Assembly (NCBI GenBank): GCA_020161335.1
Contig: JAIUOJ010000019.1
Span: 1-32,549 of the forward strand
Length of the DNA: 32,549 nt
Direction of reading: 5' to 3'
Source: Pseudomonadota bacterium
GTDB lineage: Bacteria > Pseudomonadota > Gammaproteobacteria > Xanthomonadales > Xanthomonadaceae
Shown: piece by piece, positions 1,447-32,312 of the stretch
Layout of the letters: the number at the start of each line of letters is the position of its first letter
Numbering within the stretch: position 1 is the stretch's first letter
Translations under genes and position numbers: made by a program
Notes under the pieces: generated by a model
Told to the model about the DNA's origin: nothing
Databases searched by the model: none
What the model saw: the letters and a program-made list of their open reading frames with translations, nothing else

Positions 1447-1569
1447 GGGCGGCAACCTGCGGCGAATCGGGCCGCCTAGTCTACCCGCCGCGCCTTGTCC
1501 GCCGGGACCCCGGCCCGTATGATTGCGCCCCCGGCGTTCAGTGCCGGGACCGCGCAACACCCGCATTCC

Positions 1570-1660
1570 GGGGAGGTGGCAGAGCGGTTGAATGTACCTG
1601 ACTCGAAATCAGGCAGGCGTTTATAGCGCCTCGGGGGTTCGAATCCCCCCCTCCCCGCCA
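1570..1660 (+). tRNA. tRNA-Ser (anticodon CGA)
   Basis: A complete type II tRNA. The acceptor stem is GGGGAGG at 1570-1576 pairing with CCTCCCC at 1650-1656, followed by discriminator G1657 and an encoded CCA (1658-1660). The anticodon stem CCTGA/TCAGG encloses the loop CTCGAAA, giving anticodon CGA at 1604-1606, which reads serine codon UCG. The long variable arm (about 1614-1632, with pairing GGCG/CGCC) is diagnostic for serine. The T-arm is GGGGG-TTCGAAT-CCCCC. A terminator follows 15 bases downstream, so it is probably transcribed alone. Confidence 0.97.
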
Positions 1661-1674
1661 GATCGCACGCCAGG

Positions 1675-1694
1675 GCCCCCGCAAGGGGGCTTTT
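1675..1694 (+). terminator. Intrinsic terminator of tRNA-Ser
   Basis: GCCCCC (1675-1680), loop GCAA (1681-1684) and GGGGGC (1685-1690) form a 6-bp GC stem with a stable GNRA-type tetraloop, followed directly by TTTT and then GCTTTG. Placed just after the tRNA, this is a classical Rho-independent terminator. Confidence 0.88.
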
Positions 1695-1905
1695 GCTTTG
1701 GGCGGGCTTGCGCGCACCGGGGCCGGGGTCGCGCAGGCTGTGCGGGCGGCGCGTCGCAAATCGACGTGGCGGCCGGCCCGGAAGCGACGCGGATCGTCAC
1801 TTCCGGGCACCGGGAACGCGCTGGCGGTCGCGGATCGGGCAGGCACGAGTCCTGCTAGTCATTCATCGACCCTGCCTCACCAGAGCCCTGCCCCGTACCG
1901 CCGTC

Positions 1906-2037: not shown

Positions 2038-2058
2038 TCCCCGGGCCGCGCCCGTCCC

Positions 2059-2133
2059 TGTCATCCCGAGCGCAGCGAGGGATCTGCAAGTCCGCGACTG
2101 CCGGCGAGATGCCTCGCTGCGCTCCGGATGACA
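2059..2133. repeat. Dispersed hairpin repeat (CATCCCGAGCGCAGCGAGG type)
   Basis: Arms TGTCATCC at 2059-2066 and GGATGACA at 2126-2133 pair perfectly, and inner arms GAGCGCAGCGAGG (about 2069-2081) and CCTCGCTGCGCTC (about 2112-2124) extend the stem, with an ~30-base unpaired centre. I know this sequence type as a common intergenic repeat in many bacterial genomes. Here it lies between the doubtful small ORF and the end of the convergent glycoside hydrolase gene, where it could end transcription from both sides. Confidence 0.75.
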
Positions 2134-2193
2134 GCTTCGAAAGCCGCCCGCCGCCGACGGCCACACGTCGCCATCGCGATCATCCCCTCGGCG

Positions 2194-8385: not shown

Positions 8386-8973
8386 TCAGCGAAGCGCGGA
8401 CTGTAGCGCCTTTCGGATGATGGTTTCAGCGGGATCGCCGTCGACGGCGGCCGCCTTGGCCATCTTTTGCGCCTCGGCCGGCTTGTAGCCGAGCTGCTGC
8501 AGGGCGATCGTGGCCTCCGACAGCGCGTCCGCCGGGCCCTGCGGCAGGACCGCCGGGCCGGCGCCTGCGAAGTCGGCGGCACGGTCGCGCAGTTCCACCA
8601 CCATGCGTTCGGCGGTCTTCTTGCCGATGCCCGGGATCTTGGTCAGCGCCGCCACGTCGCCGGCCTGCACCAGCAGCGCGAACTGGTTCACCGACACCCC
8701 CGACAGCACCGCCAGCGCGATCTTCGCGCCGATGCCGCTGACCTTCTGCACGTCGCGGAACAGGCGCCGCTCGGCCTCGGTGAGGAAGCCGTACAGCGAC
8801 ACGCTGTCCTCCTTCTGCGCGTAGTGGGTGAACAGCGCCACTTCGCGGCCGGCGTCGGGCAGGTCGTAGAACGTGCTCATCGGCGCCTCCAGCTCGTACC
8901 CGACGCCGTGCACGTCGACCACCAGCCACGGCGGCTGCTTGTGCGCGAGGACGCCCTTGAGCCTGCCGATCAC
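8386..8973 (-). CDS. ruvA: Holliday junction DNA helicase subunit RuvA
   Basis: A 195-residue RuvA: OB-fold domain I ([31 protein letters not shown]), domain II with two helix-hairpin-helix motifs ([15 protein letters not shown] and [18 protein letters not shown]), a flexible Ala/Gly/Pro linker (about 135-148) and the RuvB-binding domain III ([21 protein letters not shown]). RuvA tetramers bind four-way junctions and load the RuvB motor for branch migration. The start is GTG at 8973: translation there gives the canonical N-terminus and GAGGG lies 7 bases upstream. It lies downstream of ruvC with an unusually long, structured 127-base gap, and kup rather than ruvB follows. Confidence 0.96.
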
Positions 8974-8996
8974 GGTTGCGCCCTCGGGGCGCCGCG

Positions 8997-9092
8997 GGAA
9001 GGGAGAATCGTGAATGGCGAATCGGCAGATCGGGACGATGCCGCGCTGTGCATCACGCCTGCTCCATTGCCCAGTCCCGATTCCCCACTTCC
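8997..9092. repeat. Imperfect inverted repeat in the ruvC-ruvA gap
   Basis: The left part (GGAAGGGAGAATCGTGAATGG, 8997-9017) and the reverse complement of the right part (9064-9092) share GGAAG, GGGAATCGGG-like and AATGG blocks with mismatches and small gaps. An inner pair GATGC/GCATC flanks the centre. It looks like a decayed copy of a dispersed hairpin element with short GAATCG/GAATGG units. It occupies almost the whole ruvC-ruvA spacer. Confidence 0.45.
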
Positions 9093-9100
9093 TGCTTTCG

Positions 9101-9622
9101 TCATTTCCGGCTCCAGGCCAGTTGCGTGCCCACGCCCAGCCGCCTGGCGGTGGCGCGCACGTGGGCATGGGTGATGGCGATGGCCAGCGCATCGGCGGCG
9201 TCGGCCTGCAGCTTGCCGTGCAGGTTGAGCATCAGCCCCACCATGTGCTGGATCTGCGCCTTCTCGGCGCCGCCCTTGCCGACCAGCGCCAGCTTCACTT
9301 CCGTGGCCGCGTACTCGTGCACCGGCAGGTCGCGCAGCACCACCGCGCTGATCGCCGCGCCGCGCGCCTGCCCCAGCTTCAGCGCCGAATCCGGGTTGCG
9401 CGCCAGGAACACGCGCTCGATCGCCACCTCGTGCGGGCGCCATTCCTCGATCAGCGCGGTCAGGCCGACCAGCAGCCGCTTCAGGCGCAGCGGGAATTCA
9501 CCTTCGCCCAGCAGCACCAGCGCGCCATTGAACACGTGCGTCGCCCGCCCCGTGTCGTCGACGTCGATGATGCCGACGCCGGTACGCTGCGAGCCCGGGT
9601 CGATGCCGAGGATCCTGGTCAC
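9101..9622 (-). CDS. ruvC: Crossover junction endodeoxyribonuclease RuvC
   Basis: A 173-residue RNase H-fold resolvase. The four acidic metal ligands are present: Asp8 ([11 protein letters not shown]), Glu69 (AIERVF), Asp141 and Asp144 ([15 protein letters not shown]), equivalent to D7, E66, D138 and D141 of E. coli. The DNA-contacting stretch KLGQARGA and the basic segment [17 protein letters not shown] are also intact. RuvC acts as a dimer, cutting Holliday junctions processed by RuvAB. It starts 9 bases after yebC ends, so the order yebC-ruvC-ruvA-kup reads as one transcription unit. Confidence 0.97.
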
Positions 9623-19041: not shown

Positions 19042-21015
19042 TCAGCCGTACAGCGCGAGCAGTTCGGCCTCCGCCGACTCGAGTTCACTGCGCAACGTCG
19101 CCTGACGCACGGCCAGGGCCGCGACTTTCGCGCCATCGGCGTAGGTGTCGGGATCGGCCAGGTCGCGTTCGACGGACGCGATCTCGCGCTCGATGTCCGC
19201 GACCCGCGCCTCGGCCTTGCCCAGCTTGTGCGGATTGACCTTCACCGACTTGCCCGGCGGCGGCGCCTGCGCCGCTTCAACCTGCGCAACCGGCTTGGCT
19301 GCAGGCGTGCGCAGTTCGCCGGCATTGCCGCGCGCACGCAGCCACGCCGCGTATTCGTCCAGGTCGCCCTCGAACGGCTTGACCACGCCATCGGCGACGC
19401 GCCAGAACGTGTCGCTGACCAGGCCGATCAGATGGCGGTCGTGCGACACCAGCACGATGGCGCCGGGGAAATCGCTCAATGCCTCGGCCAATGCCTCGCG
19501 CATTTCAAGATCAAGGTGGTTGGTGGGTTCGTCGAGCAGCAGCACGTTCGGCTGGCGCCACGCGATCAGCGCCAGCGCAAGGCGCGCGCGTTCGCCGCCG
19601 CTGAAGCCATCGATGCTCTCGAACGCGCGGTCCCCCGGGAAGCTCCACTTGCCGAGGAAGTTGCGGAACTCCTGGATCGCCACGTTCGGCGAAATCTCGC
19701 GCAGGTGGTCGATCGGCGACGTGCCGGCGACCAGCGCTTCCACCGTGTGCTGGGCGAAGTAGCCGATGCGCAGGTCGGTATGCGCGTAACGCTCGCCTGC
19801 AAGCAAGGGCAGGTCGCCGACCAGCGATTTCACCAGCGTGGACTTGCCGGCGCCGTTGGGGCCGAGCAGGCCGATGCGGTCGCCTGCCTCCAGTCCGAAG
19901 CCGACGTTCTCCAGGATCACGACACTGTTCGTGACTGTCCCTTCTCCCGCCTGCGGGAGAAGGTGATCCGAAGGATCGGATGAGGGCGCAGACGTGCGCA
20001 CGCCCTCACCCCGGCCCTCTCCCGCACGTGGGAGAGGGGGAGCAGCGGCATACCCGCAAGTGCCATGGTTGATGCGCAGCAACGCGTGCGGCAGCTTCGC
20101 CGGCGCGGGGAAATCGATCCGCACCTCGCGCTCGGCGCGCACCGCTTCGGTGTCGGCCATCTTCGCCAGGCGCTTGACGCGCGACTGCGCCTGCTTGGCC
20201 TTCGCCGCACTGGCCTTGAAGCGGTCGATGAAACTCTGCAGGTGCGCGCGCTCGGCCTGGGTCTTCTCATGCGTGATCTGCTGCAGGCGCAACTGCTCGG
20301 AGCGCTGGCGCTCGAACGAGGTGTAATCGCCGGTGTACAGCTTCGCCTTGCCGCCATGCAGGTGCAGCGTGTGGGTGCAGACGTTGTCGAGGAACTCGCG
20401 GTCGTGCGAGATCAGCAGCAGGGTGCCCGGATATTTCAGCAGCCACTGCTCAAGCCACAGCACGGCATCGAGGTCGAGGTGGTTGGTGGGTTCGTCGAGC
20501 AGCAGCAGGTCGCTGGGCGTCATCAGCGCGCGCGCCAGGTTCAGGCGCACGCGCCAGCCGCCGGAGAACGTGGACACGGCGCGCTGGTGCGTGTCGCCGG
20601 GGAAACCCAGCCCGTGCAGCAGCTTGCCGGCGCGCGCGGTGCCGTCGTAGCCGCCGACTTCCTCCAGCAGGTGGTGCGCTTCGGCCACCGCTTCCCAGTC
20701 CTCGGCGGCCAATGCGTCGGCCTCGGCCTTCAGCGCCGCCGCCACGCGGGCATCGCCTCCGAGCACGAAGTCGATGGCCGCATCCGGCAGCGACGGCATT
20801 TCCTGCGCGATCGACGCGATGCGCACGCGATTGGGGATGTCGAGGTCGCCGCGGTCGGCCTCCACCTCGCCACGCACGGCGGCGAACAGCGAAGACTTTC
20901 CGGTGCCGTTGCGGCCGACCACGCCCAGGCGCATGCCGGCGTGCAGGGACAGGTCGACATCGGACAGCAGGAGGCGTTCGCCGCGACGGAGGGCGAAATT
21001 CTTGAAGGCGATCAT
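19042..21015 (-). CDS. ABC-F family ATPase, YheS type, with in-frame repeat insertion
   Basis: A 657-residue soluble protein with two ABC domains. NBD1 has Walker A GRNGTGKS (34-41), signature FSGGWRVRLNLARAL and LLLLDEPTNHLDLD; NBD2 has GPNGAGKS, FSGGERARLALALI and a second DEPTNHLDLE. Between them is the ABC-F linker (QRLRLQQITHEKTQAERAHLQSFIDRFKASAAKAKQAQSRVKRL), and a C-terminal coiled coil (about 590-657) ends the protein. Order and sequence match E. coli YheS (637 residues), an ABC-F factor acting on ribosomes. At the start of NBD2, after LRINHGTCGY, where YheS continues 'GDRIILDSI', about 33-40 residues derived from a palindromic repeat (bases 19940-20038) are inserted, before VILENVGFGLEAGDRIGLLG. 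The frame is kept, so the protein is probably active, but the insert sits near the nucleotide-binding face of NBD2. Confidence 0.93.
   Translation of the reverse strand: MIAFKNFALRRGERLLLSDVDLSLHAGMRLGVVGRNGTGKSSLFAAVRGEVEADRGDLDIPNRVRIASIAQEMPSLPDAAIDFVLGGDARVAAALKAEADALAAEDWEAVAEAHHLLEEVGGYDGTARAGKLLHGLGFPGDTHQRAVSTFSGGWRVRLNLARALMTPSDLLLLDEPTNHLDLDAVLWLEQWLLKYPGTLLLISHDREFLDNVCTHTLHLHGGKAKLYTGDYTSFERQRSEQLRLQQITHEKTQAERAHLQSFIDRFKASAAKAKQAQSRVKRLAKMADTEAVRAEREVRIDFPAPAKLPHALLRINHGTCGYAAAPPLPRAGEGRGEGVRTSAPSSDPSDHLLPQAGEGTVTNSVVILENVGFGLEAGDRIGLLGPNGAGKSTLVKSLVGDLPLLAGERYAHTDLRIGYFAQHTVEALVAGTSPIDHLREISPNVAIQEFRNFLGKWSFPGDRAFESIDGFSGGERARLALALIAWRQPNVLLLDEPTNHLDLEMREALAEALSDFPGAIVLVSHDRHLIGLVSDTFWRVADGVVKPFEGDLDEYAAWLRARGNAGELRTPAAKPVAQVEAAQAPPPGKSVKVNPHKLGKAEARVADIEREIASVERDLADPDTYADGAKVAALAVRQATLRSELESAEAELLALYG
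19940..20038. repeat. Palindromic repeat inside the yheS-type coding region
   Basis: Three stems in 99 bases (33 codons): CCTTCTCCCGC (19940-19950)/GCGGGAGAAGG (19953-19963); TGAGGGCG (19981-19988)/CGCCCTCA (20001-20008); and CCCTCTCCC (20015-20023)/GGGAGAGGG (20030-20038) with loop GCACGT. On the coding strand it translates as PLPRAGEGRGEG, then GVRTSAPSSDPSDHL, then LPQAGEG. The same stem sequences recur at 31890-32052. Confidence 0.85.
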
Positions 21016-31385: not shown

Positions 31386-32312
31386 TCAGGTGCTGGCGGC
31401 GGGTCCCATCCAGGCGAGCGTCGCGAGGCGTCCGCTGCGGCCATCGCGGCGATGCGAGAAGAAGCGCCGCGCATCGGAGATCGTGCACAGGTCGCCGCCG
31501 TGGATGTCGGCGGCATGCATCCCGGCTGCGGCGAGCCGCCTGCGGGCGAGCGCGGGAAGGTCGGCGAGCCAATGGCCTTCGCGGGTGGGCGAGAAACAGC
31601 CCACAGCGCCAGCGTCGGCCGACACGAACGCATCGAACACGTCCCGCCCGACCTCGTAGCGCGACGGACCTGCCGCCGGGCCGATCCAGGCCATGACGCG
31701 CCCGGCCGGCGCGCGCATCGACGTCAGCGTCGCTTCCAGCATGCCCTTCGACAGCCCGGGCCAGCCGGCGTGCGCGGCTGCGATCTCGCTGCCGTCCTTC
31801 GCCGCGAACACCACCGGCAGGCAATCGGCGGTGAGGATCGCCAGCACCACGCCGGGGGTGGAGGTGACTGCGGCATCGGCCTGCGACTCGCCCTCACCCC
31901 GGCCCTTTCCCGCAAGCGGGAGAGCGGGAAGAGCCACCGCCGTCGCTGCGGCCCCAAGGTTCAAGCCTGCGGCAACGCCGGCCTCGCCCGTGCCTTCCGG
32001 AATGCGAGCCCGTCCCCCTCTCCCGCTTGCGGGAGAGGGTTGGGGTGAGGGCCCGGCCGGTGCCTCGAACCGCACCACGTCCGTGCCATGCACCTGCTTC
32101 AACCAGTGCGGCGTGGACGGCAAGCCGAAGCGTTCGACGAGCTCCGCGCGATTGCGCGCGACCACTTGCGGATCATCGCCATCGACGGCACGGAAGTTGC
32201 CGAGGTTGAAGGTGTCGAACGGTGCCTGCGAGGCGCCCGCGCCGTGGCGCAGCGTGGTGAACGCATGCACGTTCGCCGGGAACGGGGCGGTCGCGGCCAC
32301 GCGCGCGCTCAA
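31386..32312 (-). CDS. pgeF: Polyphenol oxidase/laccase-domain protein PgeF (YfiH), with repeat insertion
   Basis: A 308-residue member of the YfiH/PgeF family, which corrects mis-incorporated serine in peptidoglycan precursors (UDP-MurNAc-L-Ser). Key residues are His75 (KQVHG), Cys164 (TADCLPVVF) and His181 (AAAHAGW), the conserved zinc-site triad. The usual length is about 240-250; the excess is a repeat-derived insert at residues about 88-141 (bases 31890-32052), placed between the strand ending RFEAP and [12 protein letters not shown], in a surface loop of E. coli YfiH. HAGWPGL replaces the conserved HAGWRGL (Pro185). The start is TTG at 32312, overlapping the rluD TGA as TTGA, typical of translational coupling; GTG at 32300 is an alternative. 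The last residues ([11 protein letters not shown]) are those of the family. Confidence 0.93.
31890..32052. repeat. Palindromic repeat doublet inside pgeF
   Basis: Outer arms GCCCTCACCCC (31890-31900) and GGGGTGAGGGC (32042-32052) are exact inverted copies. Inside each is a stem of the CCCGC(AA/TT)GCGGG family: CTTTCCCGCAAGCGGGAGAG (31905-31924) and CCCTCTCCCGCTTGCGGGAG (about 32015-32034). The central ~90 bases are a GC-rich spacer. The unit reads in frame through both hairpins, about 54 codons. Same family as the element at 19940-20038. Confidence 0.88.

Follow-up and report, generated by a model that had tools for sequence, protein, structure and literature searches.

Among the palindromic repeats described in bacteria are REPINs, in which two inverted units surround a spacer, and the Rickettsia palindromic elements (RPEs), which were reportedly the work of Ogata, Claverie and co-workers. 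In the extracts of the RPE literature drawn on here, these elements are palindromic repeats of several families, many of which lie in frame in conserved genes, and an RPE-bearing Gmk is active with its insert (PMC10969869, PMC2229807). The GTAG/CGTC REPs are portrayed, in the parts of their survey used here, as 20–40-bp hairpins that form homo- and heterodimers and are located mostly between genes that point the same way or converge (Di Nocera et al. 2013, PMC3733652). The same extracts place some of these REPs in frame within genes including recBCD, record different REPs at about the same recB site in two Xanthomonas species, and note that heterodimers are common in several published REP families (PMC3733652). 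Table 1 of a further source, likewise used in part, gives REPs of Xanthomonas and Stenotrophomonas that border a RAYT and carry GT(A/G)G at their head (PMC2817692).

The locus described here lies in a window of 32,549 nt, which is contig C19 of a Luteimonas genome (G000; 3.56 Mb, 252 contigs, 95% complete). Within it, hairpin repeats of one family, termed family A, are read in frame inside two conserved genes, pgeF and yheS.

An inverted hairpin doublet read in frame in pgeF

The pgeF gene carries an inverted doublet at window positions 31890–32052, which is read in frame as residues 87–141 of the 308-residue PgeF protein. The inverted-repeat arms (31890–31934 and 32008–32052) are 45 nt each, 87% complementary and 73 nt apart. 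The first-pass annotation had described such a doublet in an open pgeF frame, and a covariance model of the family confirmed both arms with E-values of 2.3e-13 and 1.4e-10. Its proposal that the same family is present in pgeF and yheS was likewise upheld by the model, but the supposed matching build was not, since the pgeF element consists of two A1 units with tags outward, whereas the yheS element is a heterodimer of unlike units (A1–A2) with tags inward. The features of the window, followed by two loci elsewhere in the genome, are:

19042–21015, minus strand: yheS, ABC-F ATPase, 657 aa, its frame uninterrupted by the insert
19937–19964, minus strand: A2-type partner hairpin of the yheS element (covariance model 30.3 bits, model positions 13–40; A2 pattern on the tag side)
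20002–20041, plus strand: A1 unit of family A, located in the linker between the YheS domains (covariance model 61.6 bits, E 1.9e-11)
31386–32312, minus strand: pgeF (peptidoglycan editing factor / YfiH), 308 aa, its frame uninterrupted by the insert (residues 87–141)
31890–31929, plus strand: family A unit (A1) forming one arm of the pgeF doublet; the gene reads it in antisense orientation (covariance model 58.0 bits, E 1.4e-10, whole-genome search)
31930–32012, no strand: interior of the pgeF doublet, not common to the pgeF doublets of other species
32013–32052, minus strand: family A unit (A1) forming the second arm of the pgeF doublet; the gene reads it in sense orientation (covariance model 69.4 bits, E 2.3e-13, whole-genome search)
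L132 1077–1116 and 1589–1629 (G000 contig C23): family A units at the recB end and in the recD interior
L017 1500–1621 (G000 contig C12): in-frame A1–A1 pair between the halves of an RND permease, residues 473–513

PgeF profile models matched both flanks of the insert. The distance between the WLxQVHG and TADCLP motifs is 97 residues in the window PgeF and 46 in that of the nearest species (G012), which has a short loop and no insert, indicating an addition of ~51 residues. The best solved relative, 1rw0, aligns to PgeF residues 2–83 and 141–302, with about four residues of its own between these segments. An AlphaFold model of PgeF has a mean pLDDT of 86.8 and values of ~98 in much of the core, while residues 105–139, situated between strands 79–81 and 147–150, fall below 50. 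The insert is predicted to be disordered in an otherwise confident model, and the earlier suggestion that the doublet supplies useful protein segments finds no support in these low pLDDT values. No whole copy of the doublet interior was found elsewhere in the genome.

Alignment of thirty genome copies gave a 40-nt A1 consensus, GCCCTCACCCCRRCCCTCTCCCGCAAGCGGGAGAGGGGGC, which comprises a 13-nt 5' tag (GCCCTCACCCCRR), an 11-bp stem and a 2-nt loop. When the unit was folded as DNA, its hairpin was beaten by only 1 of 200 shuffles (z −3.4); since the copies hardly differ from one another, they show little covariation. The other type of unit, A2, is unlike A1 and reads CCTTCTCCCGC..GCGGGAGAAGG, after which comes a tag of the GGATGAGGG type. 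An A2 partner lies on the tag side, 14–46 nt away, in 18 of the 55 A1 units of the genome, with the tags facing inward, and the A1–A2 heterodimer is the common dimer of this genome. The A1–A1 pairs comprise three inward ones, including the RND permease copy, and two outward ones, including the pgeF copy.

The thirty-unit consensus (GCCCTCACCCC ... GGGGGC) contains neither a GT(A/G)G tetranucleotide nor a CGTC tag beside the stem, in agreement with the original description of the stems as GTAG-less. A search of the window and four loci with Rfam 15 at gathering score returned only sX4 and tRNA, with no family match at the element; the sX4 sRNA match (75.1 bits) is at window 1560–1711 and overlaps a tRNA match (58.2 bits). 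A further inverted repeat of different sequence is present at window 2042–2150, with 44-nt arms that are 80% complementary and 21 nt apart.

Placement of family A in its own genome

Because a loose pattern search at 3 mismatches yields mostly chance matches (98, vs 55 with the pattern reversed), copies were counted with the covariance model. The tally comprises 55 matches of at least 39 bits in 45 clusters; 150 of 3030 first-look candidates were scored, and the copy numbers are therefore lower bounds. Gene context was assigned by family searches together with a codon-usage caller, for which 15 segments of the window served as training data. The caller did not call pgeF as spanning its element, and pgeF was added to the tally separately.

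Four of the 45 sites are internal and in frame (pgeF, yheS, recD and the RND permease), two form C-terminal tails (recB and lipB), and 39 are apparently intergenic. The recD copy consists of three family A hairpins between the N-terminal and ATPase domains. The intergenic sites lie between same-strand genes in 29 cases, between convergent genes in seven and between divergent genes in one, with a single called neighbour in the remaining two. Genes that flank the same-strand sites include atpD/atpC, sucC/sucD, nrdA/nrdB, glyQ/glyS and ftsZ/lpxC, and one pair consists of complete tandem paralogues. Open frames across the elements at C125, C26:11076, C80 and C23:331 were judged non-coding, and the element at C74 overlaps the end of a called ORF. 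Family A thus has REP-like features in the broad sense: a 40-nt hairpin with 55 matches in 45 clusters, mainly intergenic and rarely between divergent genes. It also behaves as a protein-coding palindromic repeat in its four internal hosts, with the nearest species empty at both pgeF and yheS.

According to the first-pass annotation, this family regularly lands in loops of coding genes. The presence of copies in coding loops stands, given the four internal in-frame copies and the filling of the same loops in several species, but regular landing in genes does not, as most tallied sites are apparently intergenic (39/45). The opposite outcome that it had considered, in which copies break most of the genes they enter, was not observed: no gene broken by family A was seen among the 29 same-strand neighbour pairs compared with Pfam, the other 16 of the 45 sites being outside this pair test. 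Both neighbours matched Pfam as separate genes in 26 of these pairs, and in three pairs one neighbour had no match.

We also considered whether the unit is unusually open to translation, and rejected this candidate. On average 4.97 of the six frames of a family A unit are open, compared with 5.16 of six for shuffles of its letters. With about five of six frames open and shuffles alike, the unit is not tuned for translation, and the in-frame copies are best seen as those that selection has spared.

The same loops and linkers in related species

Family A is found in Luteimonas and also beyond its family, elsewhere in the order; in the genus the counts rest on at most 127 scored candidates, so that these numbers, which include reverse-strand matches, are lower bounds. 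The PgeF set comprised 56 loci, of which 54 loops were parsed (G038 and G016 were not) and 49 of the parsed loops are from Luteimonas; G006 gave no PgeF match. Family A occurs in five of the 51 Luteimonas PgeF loci searched (G000, G010, G024, G002 and G028), always in the same loop. These bearers do not form one clade, their inserts are read in two frames, and their WLxQVHG-to-TADCLP lengths range from 81 to 186 residues. All five are rich in family A (5/5; rank test 0.002, kinship not removed). G000 and G010 have both insertion points in common but not the interior or the arm variant, and the insertion point in G024 is a few codons earlier and in another frame than that in G000. In the wider group, for which 80 named PgeF loci were searched, a doublet is present in the loop of one metagenome-assembled genome (L199), and L176 and L168 have weak single matches there. 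The tags point outward in all six pgeF doublets (G000, G010, G024, G002, G028 and L199; the loci include L060, L063, L073, L128 and L199), and outward family A pairs occur at other places in relatives as well.

Changes were counted on a quick tree built from the YheS and PgeF cores of 50 species (804 columns), in which seven of the 50 rows are under half filled and G006 is absent. The PgeF insert requires four changes on this tree, at least three of which are forced by starred branches, and the YheS linker shows 13 changes of state.

Several other features of the PgeF loop were observed. In G028 and G002 (L073 and L128), it holds long glycine-rich repeats, with 137 and 186 residues from WLxQVHG to TADCLP. 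By eye, hairpin-like relics seem to be present in the loop of G017, G018 and G027. When G012 was compared with the window (L267 against L288), YheS was 99% identical in its first half and 90% in its second, and the PgeF parts were 80–83% identical; this contrast hints at recombination.

The YheS set comprised 50 loci, of which 49 were parsed (G038 was not), and G007 and G041 were left out as fragments. The linker between the two ABC domains is 13–18 residues long in 27 of the 49 species, including G012, which has no insert, and 28–70 residues long in the other 22. Of the filled linkers, six contain family A or its variants, ten family B and three family C, and three are unassigned; lone A-pattern matches in the linkers of G005 and G047 were taken to be fortuitous. 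Family B consists of inverted arrays of a GGGATTC-like heptad, in frame at the linker (L269, L270, L271, L275, L281, L284 and others; window equivalent about 19917–20060). It includes a GTGATTCG variant (among others in G005, G024, G029, G033 and G042), whereas the genome counts used the GGGATTCGGGA pattern. Peptides from frames near ruvA/ruvC suggest another family B copy at window 8960–9190. Family C consists of inverted TGTAGGAGC...GCTCCTACA-like units, which are GTAG REPs by their head; it is translated in frame in the linkers of G003, G044 and G016 (L273, L276 and L279) and is abundant in these genomes. Three unrelated repeat families therefore occupy one YheS linker.

Close relatives differ at this site: G036 is filled and G020 and G040 are empty, G022 is filled and G032 is empty, and G031 is filled and G008, G011 and G025 are empty. 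The occupying family was compared with its abundance in the genome, kinship not being removed in any of these tests. Family B fills the linker in ten of 16 B-rich genomes and in none of 33 others (Fisher 1e-6), and a stricter set of seven gives 7/16 vs 0/36 (p 9e-5). Family C does so in three of ten C-rich genomes and in none of 39 others (Fisher 0.007), and family A in five of 29 A-rich genomes and in one of 20 others (Fisher 0.38; rank test 0.046). Families B and C fill the YheS linker where they are abundant; for family A the link to copy number is weak. The inserts of G022 and G036 both contain AATARDSGVGSRES, and many filled linkers start GYAA. Insert-bearing YheS alleles may have been exchanged between species by recombination, which would lower the number of events. 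In the RecD linker, the model identifies family A in G000 and G010, and peptides alone suggest it in G002, G028, G039, G046 and G050.

Origin of the in-frame copies and comparison with known systems

We consider it probable, at about 70%, that these are REP-like non-autonomous repeats that are not aimed at loops, are tolerated in frame only at permissive loops, and have been refilled there by the repeats abundant in different lineages. The pgeF insert would then be a doublet of a hairpin repeat whose family is mostly intergenic, inserted without regard to genes rather than directed to the PgeF and YheS loops. As the unit is GC-rich, most frames would stay open; insertions that shift the frame or enter the folded part of a conserved gene would be lost, and in-frame copies would persist in permissive loops, where the fold tolerates a disordered segment. 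Because permissive places would be few, the same loops would be refilled in different lineages by the repeats abundant there. The PgeF insert itself is most likely a neutral, disordered loop extension.

Certain observations sit uneasily with this reading. All six pgeF doublets have outward tags, yet inward pairs prevail in the window's genome (18 A1–A2 and three A1–A1, vs two), a pattern that fits a shared old insertion or another constraint too. The identical insertion point of G000 and G010, the possible exchange of alleles (G022/G036 and the GYAA starts) and the weak tie of family A in YheS to copy number also count against it. A single old pgeF insertion, kept or lost by species and homogenized with current repeats by gene conversion, would account for the uniform tag orientation and for the two insertion points that G000 and G010 have in common without a common interior or arm variant. 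We nevertheless regard it as rather unlikely, since the inserts of G024 and L199 differ in position and frame, an origin at the genus root would need many separate losses on the tree, and conversion leaves the three unrelated families at the YheS site unexplained. The insertion machinery could instead prefer certain sequences or structures, so that the same spots are struck often and not only tolerated. By eye, all three families enter YheS shortly behind TGCGGCTAY, and TGCGGTT lies a few codons before the pgeF inserts of G000 and G010; however, the empty CGY-to-FGL linker is only 13–18 residues long, so that such coincidence is expected from selection, and a target preference seems to us quite improbable. 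Adoption of the segment for some useful role in PgeF or YheS is less probable still and would surprise us. The genes stay open and relics seem to be present in G017, G018 and G027, but the interior is not conserved, lengths in the five bearers vary widely, the insert is predicted to be disordered, and the nearest species lacks it.

The means by which family A moves bears on a further alternative, in which it is an ordinary REP mobilized by a RAYT that has been lost or missed here. Hairpin units, dimers and intergenic placement suit this idea, as do a PF01797 match in 33 of 52 Luteimonas and a weak rank correlation between family A and RAYT counts across 120 genomes (rho 0.26, p 0.004, without correction for kinship). 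The search for a RAYT-type partner that the first-pass annotation had proposed nonetheless gave no PF01797 match in the genome of the window, and eight of 24 A-rich Luteimonas (this genome and seven others: G011, G040, G014, G018, G025, G006 and G009) are without one. Presence of family A was not associated with presence of RAYT in the 120 genomes (Fisher p 0.11, 0.64 and 1.0 at 1, 3 and 5 copies), the correlation within the genus was rho 0.10 (p 0.48), and family A has no GT(A/G)G head. We judge this alternative unlikely; a resident RAYT is not needed for the present abundance of family A. The pgeF and other junctions were compared by eye with diverged empty sites only, and no target site duplication was caught; nor was a transposase or a recent jump of family A with clean junctions seen.

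Tolerance in permissive loops might have a larger consequence, which we offer tentatively. Certain protein loops could be reusable docking places for genomic parasites, in which unrelated families alternate as each rises, as in YheS, and which family A uses in PgeF and RecD, with family A moved by a non-RAYT enzyme; the loop would record past repeat outbreaks and may in time give new sequence.

These findings extend a phenomenon already familiar from Rickettsia and from occasional intragenic REPs. Within a single genus, about fifty species can be compared in which the same gene is either filled or empty, and in one linker the filling repeats are unrelated. With such a set one can test if in-frame insertion is targeted or merely sieved by selection, and if an insert is ever put to use. 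Such loci naturally document the places at which proteins put up with inserted DNA, and a loop that admits tens of additional residues is a convenient site for a protein tag. The abundance of family A in the A-rich species without a RAYT match raises the question of its mover. Among the best matches in open-licence PMC articles, we saw none that describes family A or its peptides, or that reports a loop used by more than one repeat family.

Compared with REPINs, the elements share the inverted pair, but the common dimer here joins unlike units (A1–A2) and no RAYT match accompanies it. The likeness to RPEs, as far as the extracts of those reports go, lies in in-frame palindromic repeats in conserved genes and is drawn at the level of description; unlike RPEs, the repeats here reside in a GC-rich Luteimonas host, and a single linker holds, depending on the species, any of three unrelated families. 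The GTAG/CGTC REPs, as represented in the same partial way, resemble family A in their hairpins, dimers, mainly intergenic placement and hosts that include recB and recD, but family A has neither tag beside the stem, whereas family C, found in YheS of three species, has the GTAG head. With the RAYT-linked REPs of Xanthomonas and Stenotrophomonas, on the evidence of the material cited, family A shares the bacterial family, hairpin units, dimers and clusters, but no GT(A/G)G head and no flanking RAYT were found for it. For the occupation of a single site by different REPs, the only precedent we encountered is recB in two Xanthomonas species (PMC3733652). The behaviour described here is of a known kind; family A and the use of one linker by several families are its new parts.
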